A program made the position numbers and the translations under genes. 64,000 nt of DNA from Nitrospiraceae bacterium (GTDB lineage: Bacteria; Nitrospirota; Nitrospiria; Nitrospirales; Nitrospiraceae), in assembly GCA_019637075.1 (NCBI GenBank), contig JAHBWI010000003.1:62001-126000 (forward strand), read 5' to 3'. Positions 11,638-20,983 of this stretch are shown here, piece after piece. Under the pieces are notes generated by a model, which saw nothing but the letters and a program-made list of their open reading frames with translations, made no database searches and was not told the DNA's origin. Every line of letters begins with the position of its first letter. The first letter of the stretch is position 1.

Positions 11638-12081
11638 ATGAAAGTCAGTCTTCGAGCGACTTACGGCATCATTGCGGCGGTGGATTTGGCCTTGCACGAC
11701 GCGAATCAACCGGTCTGCGCAAAGTCTATCGCCCACCGGCAGGGGATTCCCGCAAGGTTTCTCGAGCAGGTGCTGCATGCCATGAAAAAAGCAGGGGTGG
11801 TCACGAGTCAGCGAGGCGCACAGGGCGGCTATGTCTTGAGTCGAAAAGCATCTGAGCTCTCGGTAGCGGATATTCTCAGTGCCCTCGATGGGCCGCTCAT
11901 GGCGGCCAACGGAAGCCAGGTGAAGCGCTCTCGCGGGGCAAAGCGAGACGCTCTGCTGTCGCATCTCTGGGACCGGGTCAAGCAGGCCGAGCTCAGTGTC
12001 CTCTCCGACGTGACCGTCGAGGAGTTGGCCGAACGGCAACGGTCACTCGAAGAGCGCCAGTCGTTGATGTATCACATCTGA
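11638..12081 (+). CDS. Rrf2-family transcriptional regulator
   Basis: Winged-helix repressor of 147 residues. The Rrf2 pattern is clear: MKVSLRATYGIIAAVDLALH, then SIAHRQGIPARFLEQVLHAM and the wing GVVTSQRGAQGGYVLSRKA, followed by LSVADILSALDGPL. It lacks the three-cysteine cluster of IscR and NsrR, so an Fe-S cofactor is unlikely; this matches the CymR branch, which responds to sulfur or cysteine status through a partner. It is the first gene of an operon for sulfate reduction, 56 nt before the sulfite reductase gene, with a palindrome over its own promoter. Role as the operon's sulfur-responsive regulator is inferred from context. Confidence 0.9.
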   Translation: MKVSLRATYGIIAAVDLALHDANQPVCAKSIAHRQGIPARFLEQVLHAMKKAGVVTSQRGAQGGYVLSRKASELSVADILSALDGPLMAANGSQVKRSRGAKRDALLSHLWDRVKQAELSVLSDVTVEELAERQRSLEERQSLMYHI

Positions 12082-12137: not shown

Positions 12138-14645
12138 ATGACGCCCAACACAGTCGGCCTTCGTCCCGCGATCAAGACGGAGCCGATTCCGGCCCATATC
12201 CAGGAAGAGATCGAAACATTTGAGGTGGAGGCCCGGCGGGTACTAGCCGGGGATCTCTCCACGGATATTTTCAAGCCCTTCCGGCTTCAGTATGGCATTT
12301 ACGGCCAACGCCAGCAGGGCGTGCAGATGTTCCGGATTAAGATCCCGTTCGGTGGTTTGACCGCGAACCAGGTGCGTCGCGTGGCCGAACTGGCCGATCA
12401 GTATGCCACGGGAGTTGGGCACGTCACGACCCGACAGGATATTCAGTTGCACTTCGTGGAGTTAAAAAGTGTGCCGACCATGATGCGCCTACTGGCGGAA
12501 GTCGGTCTGACGACACGCGAGGCCTGCGCCAATACCGTCCGTAACGTGACGGCCTGTCACTTGGCCGGGGTGTGCCAGGGGGAAGTGTTCGACGTCACCC
12601 CTTACGCCAAGACGGTCGCGTATCACCTCTTGCGCAATCCGCTGAACCAGAGCATGCCGCGGAAGTTCAAGATCGCCTTTTCCGGTTGCCGTCAGGACTG
12701 CGCGTTGACCCCTATCCACGACATCGGCCTGTTGGCGGCGAAGCGTGCCGACGGGACGATTGGATTCCGCATGGTCGCCGGGGGAGGACTCGGGTCGTTG
12801 CCCCGCATGGCGCAGGTGTTACGCGAATTCACTCCGATGGAGGAGCTGATTCCGAGTATCGAAGCGGTCATCAAAGTTTTTGACACCCTCGGAAACCGTA
12901 AGAACCGGAATAAGGCTCGAATGAAGTTCGTAATCGAAAAACTCGGCTTTGAAGAATTCAAGCGACGCTGGGAGGCGACCTACGCAGCCATGGGCTATGC
13001 GGTCCCGACGCATGAGCCGATTAAATTGTTGACCTACGCAGACACCCCTCCGCTCGTGATGCCGACCAAAGTTGGGGCGACCACGAACGGGAGTGGCAAT
13101 GGCCATATGGCGCAGGGAAATGGAAACGGAAACGGTTCCCACTCGTTAAACGGCGCTGTTTCCGCGTTCCAAGCGTGGAAGCGGACCAATGTGGTGGCGC
13201 AGCGGCAGTCGGGATTCGTGACGGCTGCCATCAAATTACCCATGGGCGATCTCACCGCTGAGCAAATGTGGGGCGTTGCCGATTTGGCCGAACGCTATTC
13301 CAACGGAAATATCCGCACGACGATCAACCAGAACATGGTCATTCGCTGGATTCCGGAAGATCGCCTGGAATCGTTCTATCTGGAACTGGCCCAGCACAGT
13401 TTGGCCGATCCCGGCGCGGAGCTCGTCGAGGACATCATCGCTTGCCCTGGAACCGATACCTGCGGATTGGGCATTACCTCTTCGAAAGGCATGGCTCGCG
13501 CGCTGGCTGAGGTGTTTCCCGCAGGGCAAGTTCCGGAGGATTTGCGCGACGTCAGCGTGAAGATCAGCGGGTGCCATAATTCATGCGCGCAGCACCATAT
13601 TGCGACCATCGGTCTGCACGGGGTGGGCAAGCGTATCGGAGAACATACGGCGCCTCACTACGAATTGCATTTGGGTGGCCACGTGGATGGGACGCCGAAG
13701 ATCGGCCAGTTGACCGTGAAGTTGCCGGCGAAGAGCGTGCCCGCGGCGGTCCGTCACCTGGTGGATGTCTATCGGCGGGACAGGAAGACTGGTGAATCCC
13801 TGCAGAACTTCCTGGGCCGTGTCGGAAAAGGCGTACTTAAGGATGAACTGATTCCCTATACGATCGTTCCGGCGTTTGATCAGGATTCGACCTACTACTA
13901 TGACTGGGAAGGCGAGGCCGAATTCGTGTTGGAGGATCTCGGGCCTGGCGAATGTGCCGGCGGCGCGCTGGAGATGATCGACGATCGCATGTTGGAGGCC
14001 GACCAGGAGCTGTACCAGGCGAAGCTGCTCGTCGACAAACATCAATTCGCCGTGTCGGTGAACAAGTCCTATCGGGCGGTGCTGGCCGCGGCAAAAGCTC
14101 TGCTGGTGACCGAAGGCGTGGACCCAGCAACCGATTCGGAAACGTTTCAGGAGTTCGATGCCCGTTTGGCGGCCAAGGGCATCGTGCCTGCGTCCTATCG
14201 CGATCTGGGCAGTCAGATCGGTGATTTAGGGCCGAAGGACACGACGGTAGACGTGGCGACCGCGAAGATGGCATTTGCCAAGAGCTTCATCGCCGTCTGC
14301 CGTGCAGCGACGGATCAACTCGGGAAGGATTTGAAACTGGCGAAAGTGGAGGAAGAATCGTTGCCGACCGCGCCTCAAGCCCCAGTTACGCCGGCTGCCC
14401 CTGCGGTACAGGCGCCGGTCTACGACCTCCGTGGCGTGGCCTGCCCGATGAACTACGTCAAGACGAAGCTGAAACTCGAGATGATGGACCACGGTGAACA
14501 ACTCGAGGTGTGGCTGGATGCGGGGGAACCGATCCGCAACGTGCCGATGAGTTTGCGAAACGACGGGCATAAGATTTTGACCGAGAGCCCATTGGATGCG
14601 GAGTCGAAGCATTTCAAAATTCTCGTCGAAAAGGTCGAGGGCTGA
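12138..14645 (+). CDS. Sulfite (or nitrite) reductase hemoprotein with C-terminal TusA domain
   Basis: Siroheme/[4Fe-4S] reductase, most likely sulfite to sulfide given its neighbours. The 835-residue protein has two half-repeats, each a ferredoxin-like lobe plus a NIR_SIR domain. The second has the standard ligands C436-x5-C442 and C479-x3-C483 (CPGTDTC, CHNSC). The first also has C140-x5-C146 and C184-x3-C188 (CHLAGVC, CRQDC), where most family members are degenerate. A Gly/Asn-rich linker near 315-335 joins the halves. Residues about 610-735 are helical and unassigned (HEPN-like impression). Residues 757-835 are a TusA sulfur-carrier domain (DLRGVACPMNYVKTKL, Cys769). A GAGG ribosome site lies 8 nt upstream. 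Confidence 0.92.
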   Translation: MTPNTVGLRPAIKTEPIPAHIQEEIETFEVEARRVLAGDLSTDIFKPFRLQYGIYGQRQQGVQMFRIKIPFGGLTANQVRRVAELADQYATGVGHVTTRQDIQLHFVELKSVPTMMRLLAEVGLTTREACANTVRNVTACHLAGVCQGEVFDVTPYAKTVAYHLLRNPLNQSMPRKFKIAFSGCRQDCALTPIHDIGLLAAKRADGTIGFRMVAGGGLGSLPRMAQVLREFTPMEELIPSIEAVIKVFDTLGNRKNRNKARMKFVIEKLGFEEFKRRWEATYAAMGYAVPTHEPIKLLTYADTPPLVMPTKVGATTNGSGNGHMAQGNGNGNGSHSLNGAVSAFQAWKRTNVVAQRQSGFVTAAIKLPMGDLTAEQMWGVADLAERYSNGNIRTTINQNMVIRWIPEDRLESFYLELAQHSLADPGAELVEDIIACPGTDTCGLGITSSKGMARALAEVFPAGQVPEDLRDVSVKISGCHNSCAQHHIATIGLHGVGKRIGEHTAPHYELHLGGHVDGTPKIGQLTVKLPAKSVPAAVRHLVDVYRRDRKTGESLQNFLGRVGKGVLKDELIPYTIVPAFDQDSTYYYDWEGEAEFVLEDLGPGECAGGALEMIDDRMLEADQELYQAKLLVDKHQFAVSVNKSYRAVLAAAKALLVTEGVDPATDSETFQEFDARLAAKGIVPASYRDLGSQIGDLGPKDTTVDVATAKMAFAKSFIAVCRAATDQLGKDLKLAKVEEESLPTAPQAPVTPAAPAVQAPVYDLRGVACPMNYVKTKLKLEMMDHGEQLEVWLDAGEPIRNVPMSLRNDGHKILTESPLDAESKHFKILVEKVEG

Positions 14646-14660: not shown

Positions 14661-15392
14661 ATGAGTTTGTCGATGACCACAGCCAATGCTCAGAACAGGC
14701 CGTCGGACCAGGAATTGAAAGCACTCAGCGACTCGTTCGAGTCGCGTCAGCCCTGGGAAGTGATGGAGCAGGCGCTTACGATGTTCAAAGGAAGCATCGT
14801 ATTGGCCTGCAGTTTCGGTGCGGAGGACGTGGCGCTGGTGGATATGATGCACCGCATCGACCCCCAGGCGCCGCTGTTCTATTTGGATACCGGTTTTTTG
14901 TTTCCCGAAACGATCGAGGTTCGGGATCGAATCGTAGAACGGTATGGGCTCACCCCGCACCAGGTAATCCGGATGATGTCGTTGCTCACGCCGGATCAAC
15001 AGACTGCTCAGTATGGGGCCGGGCTGTGGCAGCGAAACCCCGATCAATGTTGTCAGTTGAGGAAGATTGAGCCGCTGGGGCGTGTTCTCTCGAACTATGC
15101 GGCGTGGATCACGGGTATCCGGCGCGACCAGGCTCCGACACGCGCCAATGCCGGTATCATCGAGTGGGACAAGAAGTTCAACCTGGTCAAGGTGAATCCC
15201 CTGGCGCGCTGGACCAGTGAGCAAGTCTGGACCTACATTCAGCTTCACGAAGTGCCCTACAACGTGCTCCACGACCGCAACTATCCCAGTATCGGTTGTA
15301 CCCATTGCACAGCGCCGGTGGCGCCGGGCGAAGACCCACGCTCGGGTCGGTGGAAGAATTTCACCAAGACTGAGTGCGGACTGCACAAGTAA
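14661..15392 (+). CDS. cysH: Assimilatory adenylyl-sulfate (APS) reductase
   Basis: Reduces APS to sulfite using thioredoxin or a similar donor. The 243-residue protein has the PP-loop-like nucleotide fold (ACSFGAEDVALVDMMHRI), the Cys-Cys pair in NPDQCCQLRKIEPL, a second pair in GCTHCTAPV, and the catalytic C-terminal TKTECGLHK. The paired cysteines bind a [4Fe-4S] cluster and mark the APS-using type rather than the PAPS reductase of enterobacteria, so no APS kinase is required. It follows the sulfite reductase gene by 15 nt. No in-frame alternative start has better support than ATG 14661. Confidence 0.95.
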   Translation: MSLSMTTANAQNRPSDQELKALSDSFESRQPWEVMEQALTMFKGSIVLACSFGAEDVALVDMMHRIDPQAPLFYLDTGFLFPETIEVRDRIVERYGLTPHQVIRMMSLLTPDQQTAQYGAGLWQRNPDQCCQLRKIEPLGRVLSNYAAWITGIRRDQAPTRANAGIIEWDKKFNLVKVNPLARWTSEQVWTYIQLHEVPYNVLHDRNYPSIGCTHCTAPVAPGEDPRSGRWKNFTKTECGLHK

Positions 15393-15428: not shown

Positions 15429-16496
15429 ATGCAACGTCTGCTTTCCAAGATTGCCAAGGGCCAAAAGACCTCCAAGGACCTGACGTGGGAGGAGGCCAAG
15501 CAGGCGATGCGACTCATGATCGAAGGCACGGCCACGCCTGTCCAGGTCGGCGCGTTTCTGGTAGCCATGCGGTACAAGTCGGAATCGGTGACGGAGTTGG
15601 CGGCCTTCACGGCCACCGCTCGACAGTATGTTGCCCCTGTCCCCGTTCGGGCGGGGCTTGGCGTCGTGGATCTGCCGGTCTACGGGGGAAAGCGCGAGAC
15701 CTTTCATGCGATCGTGCCCGCGGCCATCGTGGCCGCGGCGGCCGGTGCCGTGATCCTGATGCACGGGGTCGATGGACCGGTGGATCGTCGCGGCGTGTCG
15801 TCGGTCCTCACACCCCTTGGAATTCCGACCGATCGGGCGGCCAAACAAGTGGGCGCGGATTTGGAACAAAGGGGGTTTGCGTACCTCGACCTCGCGCTCT
15901 ACCATCCGCCGGTCAACCGCTTTCTCGAAATGCGGCAAGAGCTGGGGGTGAGAAACGTCTTTCACCCGATCGCTCGAATGTTGAACCCGGCTCGGGCAAC
16001 CTCCCAGGTCATCGGTCTGTCACATCCGCCGTACTTTGAAAAGACGGTGGAGGCGTTGCGAATGTTGAGCTGTCCGCGGGCGCTGGTGATTCGCGGCGTG
16101 GAGGGCGATCCTGAACTGTCGATCGGCAGTGTGACCCGGTACCTCGAACTTCAAGGTGAGCGGATCACGCCGGGATCCTTCCATCCCAAGGATGCCGGGC
16201 TCACGATGACGACCTTCAAGGAGATGGCGGGCTTCCCGGCGGAGCACCGTGCCAAGGAGGTCGATTTGATCAAGCGGCTCCTGTCGAACCAGATCCAGGG
16301 CGGGCCGCGGGATTGGGTGCTACTGAACGCCGCCATGTTGCTGTATGCCGCCGGTAAGGGGACCTCAATCGCCGGCGGTGTCGCAACGGCCCGCCGAATC
16401 ATCGAATCCGGGCAGGCAGCGGCAAAATTCGCTGAACTCACTGCTGCCGGCGCATCCGGCGGCGGTCTCGCACAAACAGACAAAATTCCTGCTTAA
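15429..16496 (+). CDS. Anthranilate-phosphoribosyltransferase-like (glycosyltransferase family 3) protein in sulfur operon
   Basis: A 355-residue protein with the TrpD fold: an N-terminal helical domain ([40 protein letters not shown]) and the GT3 core ([20 protein letters not shown]). The PRPP-binding GTGGD of true TrpD is replaced by YGGKRETFH (residues 85-93), and the phosphate-loop serines near [16 protein letters not shown] are altered. It lies between cysH and cysD on the same strand, with gaps of 36 and 20 nt. A role in tryptophan synthesis is therefore unlikely. The substrate is unknown; the context says sulfate activation or reduction. Confidence 0.85.
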
Positions 16497-16516: not shown

Positions 16517-17314
16517 ATGAACCATCTGCGTCAGTTGGAAGATCAAAGCGTATACATTCTGCGGGAAGCCTACAAACACTTCGACCACCTGGCGATGCTC
16601 TGGTCGATGGGCAAGGATTCCACGGTTCTGCTGTGGTTGGCCCGAAAGGCTTTTTTCGGCCATGTCCCGTTTCCGCTCCTGCACGTCGATACCAGTTACA
16701 AGATTCCGGCCATGATCGAGTACCGTGATCGCCTGGCACGAGAGTGGCGTTTGAATTTGGTGGTGGGGCAGAACAAGGAAGCGTTGGCGCAGGGTATGAA
16801 CCATACGCTGGGGCGCGATGTCTGCTGTACCGCCTTAAAGACCACGGCTATGAAGAACTTGGTGGAAGAGAAGGGCTATACCGGCATCATCCTGGGCGTA
16901 CGAGCCGACGAAGACAGCACGAGGGCCAAAGAGCGGTATTTCTCTCCCCGCGACAAGCACGGAGACTGGGACTTTCGCGATCAGCCTCCCGAGCTCTGGG
17001 ACCAGTTCAAGACGAGTTTTCCTCCCGGTACCCACATCCGAATCCATCCGTTGCTGGATTGGACGGAAATCAATATCTGGGAGTACATCAAGTACGAGAA
17101 TATTCCTTTCATGGATCTGTATCTCGACAAGGGGGACGGGACCCGCTACCGAAGTCTCGGCTGTGCTCCTTGCACGACGCCGATCAAATCGACGGCAAAA
17201 AACGTGGATGAAATCATCGAAGAATTGCGCGGCACCAACGTGGCCGAGCGGGCCGGACGGGCTCAGGACGCAGGCCGCGGCATGGAGATGCTCCGGAAAA
17301 AGGGTTACATGTGA
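16517..17314 (+). CDS. cysD: Sulfate adenylyltransferase subunit 2
   Basis: Catalytic subunit that makes APS from ATP and sulfate, driven by GTP hydrolysis in CysN. The 265 residues include the PP-loop [55 protein letters not shown] and the C-terminal [15 protein letters not shown]. It is about 35 residues shorter than enterobacterial CysD, mostly at the C-terminus. Its TGA overlaps the ATG of cysN (ATGTGATGAG), so the two subunits are translationally coupled. Confidence 0.96.
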
Positions 17315-19179
17315 TGAGTACGACAATCACGACGGCCCCGGTTAAGGCCGTTACGCAACCGAAGGAAAACCTGAACATCGTCATCGTCGGCCATGTGGAC
17401 CATGGAAAGTCCACGCTGGTCGGTCGTCTCTACGCCGACAGCGGCTCCTTACCCGAGGGAAAACTCGAAAAGGTGCAGGCCATCTGTCGTCAGCAGGGGA
17501 AGGAGTTCGAATACGCGTTCCTGTTCGACGCCTTTTTGGAAGAACAGGAGCAGGGCATCACGATCGATACGGCGCGCACGTTTTTCAATTGGAACGAGCG
17601 GCAATACATCATCATCGATGCGCCGGGGCACAAAGAGTTTCTCAAGAATATGATTTCCGGCGCCGCGCGGGCCGAAGCTGCGCTGCTGTTGATCGACGCG
17701 CTGGAAGGGGTGAAGGAGCAGTCGAAGAAGCACGGCTACCTGCTGTCGTTGCTCGGTGTCAGGCAGTTTGCGGTGGTCGTCAACAAGATGGATTTGGTCG
17801 GGTATCGGCAGGACGTTTTCGAAGGGATTGAAAAAGAATACCGGGAGTTTCTTGGACAGTTCAAGGCCGTGCCGCAGCAAATGATTCCCGTCAGCGCGAA
17901 AATGGGGGACAATATCGTCACTCCCAGCCAGCACATGCCTTGGTACAAGGGACCGACGGTGCTCAATACGTTGGCGCTGTTCAAGAAGGAGCGGGCGCGC
18001 GGTGAACAACCCTTGCGGCTGCCGCTGCAGGATGTCTACAAGTTCGACGCGAGGCGCATCCTCACCGGACGGATTACCGCAGGGCGGCTGAAGGTGGGGG
18101 ATCAACTCGTCTTCTCTCCCTCCAACAAAACGGCGACCGTTCAGTCGATCGAAGGCTTCAATGTCGAGCCATTGCCCACCGAGGCGGAAGCCGGCCAGTC
18201 GGTCGGGATCACGCTGGATGAACAGATTTTTGTCGAGCGAGGAGAAATCGCCTCCCATCGCGATGCCATTCCCATGGTGTCGACGGCGTTTCGTGCGAAC
18301 TTGTTTTGGTTGGGCAAGCGTCCCCTGGAGAAGGGACGACGGTATCTGCTTCGGCTGGCGACCAGAGAGGTTGCCTGTGAAGTCGGGGCGATCCACCGCA
18401 TCATCGACACCACCGACCTTGCGCAGCCCCAGGCCAGCCAGGCCGTGAATAAGAATCAGGTGGCGGAACTAACCTTGCGTGTGAAAGCTCCCATTGCTTT
18501 CGACCTGTCCTCGTCCTTCGAGTCTACGGGACGATTCGTGCTGGTCGACGACTACGACATTGCGGGTGGCGGAATCATCACCGAGCTTGTCCATGACGAG
18601 CAGGAAGGCTTGCGGGAAGAGGCGCGGCAGCGGGAGTTCGCCTGGTTGCGGGGTGACGTCGGGTCGGAAGAGCGGGCCAAGCAGTTTGGACACCGGGCGG
18701 CGATCGTCCTTTTCACCGGTGCGGCGCAGAACGGCAAGACTTTCCTCGCACGGCGGGTGGAATCGTTACTCGTTGCGGACGGACGGCTGGCGTATTTGCT
18801 CGAGGGGGCGAACCTGTTGCAGGGCTTGGACGCGGACCTGTCGGCTGCGGATCCGACTTTTGGCGCAGAGCGGGTGCGTCGATATGGCGAGGTGGCTCGG
18901 TTGTTGATCGATGCCGGGATGATCGTGGTCTCCACGAGCAAGACATTCGGGATCAATTATCAACGCATGGCCGATATGATCCGCACGTTGGTTCAGCCGG
19001 CGCCGGTGATTGCCGTCCACATGAGTAAGGCCGGAGAAGACGCCCCACCCAACACCGATCTTCACTTCGCCGGACCACGGGATTTCGATGAAGCTGCGCG
19101 TCAGATCATCGAGGAACTGAAACGGCGTGGAGTGTTGGGGCAGGCGAGAGACCGGGGCAACATTCAATTTTCGATCTAG
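17314..19179 (+). CDS. cysN: Sulfate adenylyltransferase subunit 1 with degenerate APS-kinase-like tail
   Basis: GTPase subunit of ATP sulfurylase, EF-Tu-like. G1 is GHVDHGKST, switch [11 protein letters not shown]4 NKMD. Beta-barrel domains follow to about residue 440. Residues about 460-621 resemble CysC: a P-loop [15 protein letters not shown] and the segment [15 protein letters not shown]. In active APS kinases that segment reads D-G-D-N-x-R-x-G-L; here the acidic pair and the arginine are lost and the C-terminal lid motif is missing. Because APS, not PAPS, is the operon's reductase substrate, kinase loss makes sense. I chose ATG 17314, which overlaps the cysD stop; a GTG one codon earlier is possible. 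Confidence 0.93.
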
Positions 19180-19279: not shown

Positions 19280-20206
19280 ATGACCATGGCTGCCGACAAG
19301 GATCTGAAGTCGATCCTCACCAAGCTGCAGTATTCCGACGACGCGAAAGTCGTCCAGCAAATTACTGCGCAGATGAAGCAGGTGCAGGCTCGCATGGCGG
19401 GCATCAAGCGGAAGCTGGTCGTCATGAGCGGCAAGGGCGGGGTCGGAAAGAGTATGACGACGGTGAACCTGGCTTTGGCGTTTGCACGTCAAGGCGCAAA
19501 GGTCGGTCTGCTCGATGTCGATCTAAACGGACCCTGTGTGCCGCGTATGTTGGGAGTGCACGGTCAGGCGTTAACGATCACGCCGGAAGGTGCGCTGCCG
19601 CCGGTCGGGCCACTGGGGATCAAGGTGGCATCCATGGATTTTTTCCTCGGCGATGCTTCCCCGGTGCGTTGGAAAGGCCCGATGGACCTGAGCCCTGTGT
19701 GGCTGGGTCTGATGGAAATGAACGTCATTCGAGAGTTTCTCTCGGACGTGATCTGGGGTGAGCTGGATTATCTGCTGGCGGACCTGCCGCCCGGTGCCGC
19801 TGCTGACAAACCTCCGGTGATTGCCGGGTTTATCCCTGATCTTGCAGGCGCCATCGTCGTCACGACTCCATCGGAAGTGGCCTCCGACGTTGTTCAGAAA
19901 TCTGTCACCTATGCACGCGATATGGGAATCCGTGTGCTGGGCATTGTGGAAAATATGAGCGAGTACCGGTGTCCCTCCTGTGGTGCCGAGCATGAATTGT
20001 TCGAGGGCAACACGGAAGCTATGTGCGAAGCGCTGGATCTTCCGTTGTTGGGCCGGATCCCGTTCGATCGAAAGTTTGCTAAGACCTTCGACAAAGGCGA
20101 GCCACTGCTCGATCCGGAATATCCGACGATCCAGAAGTACCAGGAGATTGTGGGCCGGATCCAAGCGTTGCTGGACTATAAAAGAGTGTTAGCCGAGAAG
20201 CTTTAA
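19280..20206 (+). CDS. Mrp/NBP35-family iron-sulfur carrier ATPase
   Basis: P-loop ATPase thought to bind and deliver Fe-S clusters. The 308 residues include the deviant Walker A SGKGGVGKSMTTVNLALAF, DVDLNGPCVPRML, DLPPGAAADKPPVI and the C-terminal pair CPSCG (about residue 231) used for bridging a cluster in the dimer. There is no N-terminal DUF59/MIP18 domain, only a helical leader of about 45 residues. CGGAGGG gives a good ribosome site for ATG 19280. It stands between an operon rich in Fe-S enzymes (sulfite reductase, APS reductase) and a PCP_red protein, so cluster supply to those enzymes is a reasonable guess. Confidence 0.93.
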   Translation: MTMAADKDLKSILTKLQYSDDAKVVQQITAQMKQVQARMAGIKRKLVVMSGKGGVGKSMTTVNLALAFARQGAKVGLLDVDLNGPCVPRMLGVHGQALTITPEGALPPVGPLGIKVASMDFFLGDASPVRWKGPMDLSPVWLGLMEMNVIREFLSDVIWGELDYLLADLPPGAAADKPPVIAGFIPDLAGAIVVTTPSEVASDVVQKSVTYARDMGIRVLGIVENMSEYRCPSCGAEHELFEGNTEAMCEALDLPLLGRIPFDRKFAKTFDKGEPLLDPEYPTIQKYQEIVGRIQALLDYKRVLAEKL

Positions 20207-20233: not shown

Positions 20234-20983
20234 ATGAAATTTGTGTGTTTGAACTGTGAAACCTACATGAATTTCCAGAAGGTCGAAAAGCCGGGCGAGG
20301 GTTCGCTCGGGGTCTTTTTCGGCTGCCCATCTTGCGGGGCCAAATTTTCAATGGTCACGAATCCCGGAGAGACGCAGATGGTGGCGTCGCTGGGCGTCAA
20401 GCTCGGCGGTCGTTCGGAGGCGGCGGAGCCGTTCGAGATGACGCGCGGGACGCTCAAGGAAGAAGCCCAGGCCGGCGCAGGACAGATGGCGGCTTATCTC
20501 AACGAGAAGATCCAGGGCGGACAGCCGGCCTCGCCGAAGCCGGCCGCACCTGCGGCTAGCGGTGAGAAAACTTCCGGCGGGTGTCCCTTCTCAGCCATGG
20601 TGGCGGAGATGGGGTTGACCTCGAGTGGGAAGCCGCAGAATGGCAACGGGACCGGCGAATTCACCTGGACTCCCGACGCGAAGGAAAAATTGGAGCGACT
20701 CCCTTCGTTCGTGAAGCCGATGGTGCAGAGCAGCGTGGAAGCCTACGCCCGTAAGCACGGCTTCAAGAGCATCACGCTCCAAGTGATGGACGATTCGAAG
20801 AATGATTCGCCGAACGGCATTGCGTGGACCAAGGATGCCGAACAGCGGCTGGACAATATTCCCGATTTCATCCGGCCGATGGCTCGACGGGAGATCGAGC
20901 GGATCGCAAAGGAACGCGGCTTGGCACAGATCACCGCGCAGGTGATGGACGAGGCCAAAGACAAATTCATGAAGTTCATGTAA
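20234..20983 (+). CDS. Zinc-ribbon protein with two PCP_red domains
   Basis: A 249-residue soluble protein. Residues 1-45 hold a C-x2-C / C-x2-C ribbon (CLNCETYMNF, GCPSCGAKFSM). A Pro/Ala linker (about 95-125) includes another Cys (GGCPFSAMV). Two copies of the PCP_red fold follow: FTWTPDAKEKLERLPSFVKP and IAWTKDAEQRLDNIPDFIRP, each ending in a helix with a Q-V-M-D motif. PCP_red is the C-terminal domain of the BchB/ChlB subunit of dark protochlorophyllide reductase; outside phototrophs it occurs alone with no known function. It follows mrp by 27 nt with a good ribosome site. Function unknown; link to cofactor handling is conjecture. Confidence 0.82.
   Translation: MKFVCLNCETYMNFQKVEKPGEGSLGVFFGCPSCGAKFSMVTNPGETQMVASLGVKLGGRSEAAEPFEMTRGTLKEEAQAGAGQMAAYLNEKIQGGQPASPKPAAPAASGEKTSGGCPFSAMVAEMGLTSSGKPQNGNGTGEFTWTPDAKEKLERLPSFVKPMVQSSVEAYARKHGFKSITLQVMDDSKNDSPNGIAWTKDAEQRLDNIPDFIRPMARREIERIAKERGLAQITAQVMDEAKDKFMKFM

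Follow-up and report, generated by a model that had tools for sequence, protein, structure and literature searches.

A TrpD-derived protein without the PRPP site in the sulfate-assimilation cluster of Nitrospiraceae: a candidate regulatory or accessory protein of siroheme-reductase operons

Background

TrpD2 proteins are defined as having the TrpD fold while lacking the PRPP motif (PMC9835598). YbiB of E. coli (NF006005/PRK08136; PDB 4muo, 8bfr and 7y3p), the founding member, has no TrpD catalytic function, and its basic grooves are binding sites for DNA and ObgE (PMC10123104). Here, we analyse a gene of this type in a stretch of 64,000 nucleotides from a Nitrospiraceae bacterium (contig JAHBWI010000003.1, positions 62,001 to 126,000), referred to as the window. 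A second system for comparison is CnaT (all0601) of Nostoc/Anabaena PCC 7120, reportedly TrpD-like in the account of Frias et al. 2003 and presumably identical with PRK07394 / NF005635. CnaT is tied to a siroheme nitrite-reductase operon, and expression of that operon depends on it; our comparison with CnaT uses the score of the family model. The third system, PRK09071 (NF006564), a proteobacterial family named 'glycosyl transferase family protein', is treated below together with its operons. No description of the TrpD2-like subfamily in cys operons, or of LysR-TrpD2 fusions, was found in the open-licence literature.

Results

The gene and its sulfate-assimilation cluster

The TrpD2-like gene is surrounded by the following genes:

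11638 to 12081, + strand: Rrf2-family regulator, first gene of the cluster (closest models CymR and IscR)
12138 to 14645, + strand: sulfite/nitrite-reductase-type siroheme protein (Sir) with a C-terminal TusA domain; C-x5-C and C-x3-C in both halves
14661 to 15392, + strand: cysH, with the CC and CxxC motif of [4Fe-4S] APS reductases
15429 to 16496, + strand: TrpD2-like gene, TrpD fold without the PRPP site, 355 aa (ORF, Pfam, model and tree)
16517 to 17314, + strand: cysD, sulfate adenylyltransferase small subunit
17311 to 19179, + strand: cysN fused to a degenerate-looking APS-kinase-like domain
19280 to 20206, + strand: Mrp/ApbC-type iron-sulfur carrier ATPase, present after the cys genes in nearly all relatives
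20234 to 20983, + strand: PCP_red-domain protein, present after mrp in nearly all relatives

The small intergenic gaps and the common strand are compatible with a single operon. No promoter or terminator signals above the shuffled expectation were detected in the cluster region, and a search of the window for an NtcA-type site (canonical GTA-N8-TAC, searched as GTATN8TAC) gave zero matches.

The ligand sets of Sir are complete in both halves (140/184 and 436/479), as in all relatives checked, including those from other families, and their sequence suggests that two siroheme-[4Fe-4S] centres may be bound. In the CysC-like domain fused to CysN, the GKT P-loop is retained, and the match is otherwise weak (48 bits). 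The APS-reductase motifs of CysH and the degenerate look of this domain indicate that APS is probably used directly and that formation of PAP is unlikely. A second cysD-like gene, 53% identical, is located elsewhere in the same genome (G000:C1:774597-775397), and approximately two dozen relatives also carry a second copy.

The TrpD fold is retained and the PRPP site is lost

The ORF runs from ATG to stop and is preceded by a candidate ribosome site (AAGGA). Both TrpD domains, PF02885 and PF00591, are matched by its product. Reverse-strand frames overlapping 15429-16496 were rejected as genes, since the plus-strand frame matches two Pfam domains and is kept in more than 100 genomes. Assignment to nucleoside phosphorylase class II was likewise rejected, as the extra C-terminal domain is absent and PF02885 and PF00591 are the only domains found in the 355 aa. 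An AlphaFold model built from 31 relatives predicts the fold with a mean pLDDT of 87 and a pTM of 0.89; when it was compared with TrpD crystal structures, ~327-334 residues were aligned with Z of ~38-40 and rmsd of 1.9-2.4. Judged from this model, the TrpD fold is intact, and the earlier note, which had recognized this fold from the sequence, was right in this respect. YbiB was not among the 50 top-ranked structures, which is no argument against kinship.

The PRPP-holding residues of TrpD were taken from the list in a review (PMC9835598). Two codon blocks are of particular relevance:

15678 to 15692, + strand: codons of V84-Y-G-G-K88, replacing GTGGD; Y85, G87 and K88 invariant in 31 aligned proteins
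15759 to 15788, + strand: codons of M111-HGVDGPVD-R120, replacing KHGNRSVSS(K/R); H112, G113 and R120 invariant

The replacement of GTGGD by YGGKRETFH, also claimed in the earlier note, was found at residues 85-93, and other PRPP residues proved to be replaced too. H93-A-I-V96 occupies the position of the TrpD N-x-S-T motif, with its pyrophosphate and Mg residues gone; M111 stands for the TrpD Lys, V114 for the Asn after HG, and P228 for the Mg-binding Asp. Among the PRPP/pyrophosphate residues checked, a single Mg-binding Glu (E229) is unreplaced, and R169, presumed by its motif to be the Arg that contacts the anthranilate carboxylate, is also kept. These losses are identical in all cys-linked copies read. 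In the alignment of 31 proteins, the pocket residues Y85, K88, R120, R169, R175, E225 and E229 are invariant, and strong conservation was seen at Y85, G87, K88, H112-G113, R120, R169, E171-R175, H199-P200, Y202-K205, G223 and E225-G226. Such conservation indicates that the pocket is under constraint and that the gene is not decaying.

Could the gene nevertheless encode a second, functional TrpD? The resemblance to TrpD comprises the fold over ~330 residues, R169 and E229, and the score with the NCBIfam trpD model TIGR01245, 200.0 bits, barely exceeds the cut-off of 199.05. The corresponding score is 196.3 for the N. defluvii copy and 215.5 for another copy; with the threshold barely reached, annotation pipelines will name some copies trpD. 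In contrast to TrpD, however, the GTGGD loop, N-x-S-T, the Lys and the Mg Asp are all replaced, and the protein belongs to a separate clade in the tree. Moreover, a complete trpE-G-D-C-F-B-A operon (names read from sequences) with an intact trpD is present elsewhere in the same genome, and the product of this trpD scores 306.7 bits with PF00591, versus 123.3 bits for the TrpD2-like protein. Close homologues in trp operons, the finding that the earlier note had set against its own view, were looked for, and the gene was never seen in such an operon in the 111 genomes with a match. Given the lost site and the genome's own trp operon, we rejected a second working TrpD, an option that is scarcely credible, and infer that phosphoribosyltransferase activity has been lost.

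Relationship to YbiB and other TrpD2 proteins

In a maximum-likelihood tree of 43 proteins, with the root set on TrpD by choice, a branch supported by 100/100 splits TrpD from all non-PRPP proteins, among them YbiB and the TrpD2-like protein. The cys-linked proteins form one group (81/92), and the LysR-fused proteins described below fall with PRK09071 (100/100). The protein conforms to the definition of TrpD2, having the predicted TrpD fold and no PRPP motif. Its score with the YbiB equivalog model NF006005 is 142.7 bits, under the cut-off of 185, so it is not YbiB itself; the scores with NF006564 (167.2 bits against 257) and NF005635 (141.8 bits against 287) are also below the cut-offs, making the cys-linked clade only a distant relative of all three.

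Similarity to YbiB extends to the loop, in which Tyr has replaced Thr (SYNGAR in YbiB, VYGGKR here), to a shared side of the tree, to common basic positions and to the Arg equivalent to YbiB R123, although the latter is not discriminating, as a Lys or Arg is also frequent at this position in TrpD. The median pI is 9.2 for the cys-linked proteins versus 6.6 for TrpD. Eleven positions are basic in the cys-linked proteins and not in TrpD, and YbiB is basic at 7 of them, or at 6 by a second alignment, where ~1 in 10 would be expected; for 7, this gives P ~2e-5 if relatedness is ignored. Unlike YbiB, the protein is encoded in a cys operon and has no dinG neighbour.

Linkage to the cys operon across Nitrospiraceae

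The linkage survey covered 118 Nitrospiraceae genomes from 22 genera, 91 of them rated good. The TrpD2-like gene was present in 111 genomes, including all 91 good ones, and in all 22 genera, and cysD was detected in 112. In 110 of the 111 genomes, cysD follows the gene directly in the same orientation, 10-309 nt downstream (median 46); in the remaining one, the gene stops at a contig edge. Both genes are missing from six genomes, all incomplete, and the one genome with cysD only has this gene cut at the contig start. The linkage to the cys operon is thus near-absolute. The position between cysH and cysD, which the earlier note had called fixed, was confirmed with two qualifications. In several genera (nine loci), cysH and the TrpD2-like gene are separated by a gene that encodes a conserved DsrE-like protein of ~140 aa, and on one contig (L067), the TrpD2-like gene is placed after cysNC, still inside the cluster.

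The thrS-to-ruvA neighbourhood is syntenic within the family, indicating that part of the linkage is inherited gene order. Under one alternative, the product would bind nucleic acids in general, as YbiB does, and the location of its gene in the operon would be a frozen accident of gene order. Its basic character and its position on the TrpD2 side of the tree fit such an explanation as well as the synteny does; the changed order on contig L067, in which the gene nevertheless stays in the cys cluster, and the siroheme-reductase operons to which relatives from another phylum are independently linked (see below) speak against it, and we regard it as distinctly unlikely.

Outside this family, the picture is different. 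Other Nitrospirota families have Sir-TusA homologues without a TrpD2-like gene, and a few genomes have cysD without it; therefore, neither enzyme as such requires the gene. At four loci of other Nitrospirota, an Rrf2 regulator accompanies Sir-TusA; one of these clusters (rrf2-aprA-aprB-sir-sat) mixes dissimilatory-type with assimilatory-type genes. Leptospirillum-type genomes (four loci) carry a different TrpD2-like gene whose neighbours are MazG and an HD-domain gene (DUF3391); genes for DsrE-like proteins or TusA lie close to it. In Candidatus Manganitrophus GAC4 (L075:8001-9013), a TrpD2-like gene beside trpS is split over two frames, being broken or affected by a sequencing error.

Relatives in nitrate and iron loci

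Outside Nitrospirota, plasmid and chromid records served for the operon survey; when phages and plasmids were searched with the TrpD2-like protein, most matches were ordinary trpD. In Roseobacteraceae plasmids, a PRK09071-type gene (X) is found in the order nirB-nirD-nasA (nitrate reductase)-X-cysG, and in Catenovulum, such a gene follows nasA (nitrate reductase), with cobA and nirB nearby. The order in Vibrio THAF191d is nasA-cobA-X-nasT-nrt-nirB-nirD, with a 4-nt overlap of cobA and X (names read from sequences; nasT apparent). PRK09071-type proteins resemble the Nitrospiraceae protein in lacking the GTGGD loop, in having a SYAGKR-like loop in several non-fused members and in being bound, in several genera, to operons beside siroheme-dependent reductase genes; they differ in that these operons serve nitrate/nitrite and not sulfate, and in that one subclade is fused to LysR.

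In this subclade, a LysR-type helix-turn-helix (PF00126) precedes the TrpD2-like domain, as found in Pararhizobium, Cereibacter, Azospirillum, Pannonibacter, Agrobacterium, Sulfitobacter, Shinella and Neorhizobium. The fused genes adjoin siderophore/iron ABC transporters and TonB receptors, and their TrpD2 part is without R169 and K88. The A. ramasamyi gene has the same iron-uptake neighbourhood and a length similar to that of the fusions. Of the fusions, noted at eight loci, most are annotated as 'glycosyl transferase family protein'. It is probable that they represent an unrecognised class of regulators. Copies in Acinetobacter and Photobacterium show no linkage to nitrate or sulfur genes.

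These operons bear directly on the possibility that the retained pocket has acquired a new substrate, such as an adenylyl nucleotide of the sulfate pathway, on which, as the earlier note had suggested, the protein may act. The strong conservation of the pocket and the change of the loop Asp to Lys, which could suit another anion, would agree with a new enzyme. However, the Mg and pyrophosphate residues N, S, T and K have disappeared together with one Asp, the neighbouring genes already account for each step between sulfate and sulfide, and the nitrate and iron operons of the relatives share no adenylyl substrate, which makes an enzyme of this kind unlikely; overall, we consider it highly improbable. 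For APS, PAP or any other adenylyl nucleotide, we found no pointer in the sequence; PAP is unlikely to be made at all, and APS has no part in the nitrate/nitrite and iron operons. Thus, the earlier note was right to place a protein with the TrpD fold, distinct from TrpD itself, in the cys operon, whereas the suggested action on an adenylyl nucleotide is unsupported. The protein may still have a role in ligand binding.

Discussion

The association with siroheme-reductase operons across phyla, the fusions to regulators and the loss of the catalytic site are most simply read as indicating a pseudoenzyme that regulates or assists the operon. We therefore propose, with moderate confidence, a non-catalytic TrpD2-type product of TrpD ancestry that has a regulatory or accessory function in the assimilatory siroheme-reductase (sulfate/sulfite) operon. 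The protein would form a homodimer, as TrpD and YbiB do, with a basic cleft and an anion-binding pocket retained; cleft or pocket may bind nucleic acid, an acidic protein tail or a small anionic ligand, and this binding would adjust how the siroheme-reductase pathway is expressed or assembled. CnaT acts comparably on the cyanobacterial nitrate operon, and the LysR-fused relatives presumably do so on iron-uptake genes. Points against a regulatory or accessory role are the distant relationship to the YbiB, NF006564 and PRK07394 families, the unlinked copies in Acinetobacter and Photobacterium, the Sir-TusA homologues of other Nitrospirota that do without the gene, and the fact that, in the LysR fusions, it would be the helix-turn-helix and not the TrpD2 part, with its lost R169 and K88, that reads DNA.

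The main rival of this proposal is a partner in sulfur relay, that is, a scaffold or chaperone that handles sulfur or siroheme in physical contact with Sir-TusA, DsrE and Mrp and has no part in gene expression; a structural partner had also been suggested in the earlier note. The TusA sulfur-carrier domain on the reductase, the DsrE-like gene inserted directly before the TrpD2-like gene in several genera, the DsrE-like and TusA genes near its counterpart in Leptospirillum-type genomes and the siroheme synthesis genes cysG/cobA adjoining it in nitrate operons are all in line with such a partner. Nevertheless, Sir-TusA occurs in other families without the gene, so the reductase itself does not need it, and both the position of the LysR fusions beside siderophore genes and the expression phenotype of CnaT indicate regulation. 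We judge the partner role rather unlikely.

Returning to the regulatory or accessory role, a wider generalization can be offered only tentatively, and we hold it to be possible but doubtful: the TrpD-derived pseudoenzyme family could be a widespread signal-sensing module, free-standing in sulfate operons (Nitrospiraceae) and nitrate operons (proteobacteria and cyanobacteria) and replacing the usual effector domain in LysR-type regulators, also for iron uptake; the signal common to all might, for example, be iron, a tetrapyrrole or an aromatic carboxylate. Our comparison brings under one hypothesis, that of a dead enzyme reused as a regulator, the proteins of nitrate, sulfate and siderophore loci that are variously annotated as 'anthranilate phosphoribosyltransferase' or 'glycosyl transferase'. 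The question is hard to address in Nitrospira, and the nitrate operons of Vibrio and Roseobacter and the rhizobial LysR fusions offer tractable models. For the family itself, a trpD label, such as automatic pipelines can assign, would mask a sulfur-assimilation component that is so far unstudied and is carried by every sampled good genome of a major group of nitrifiers.
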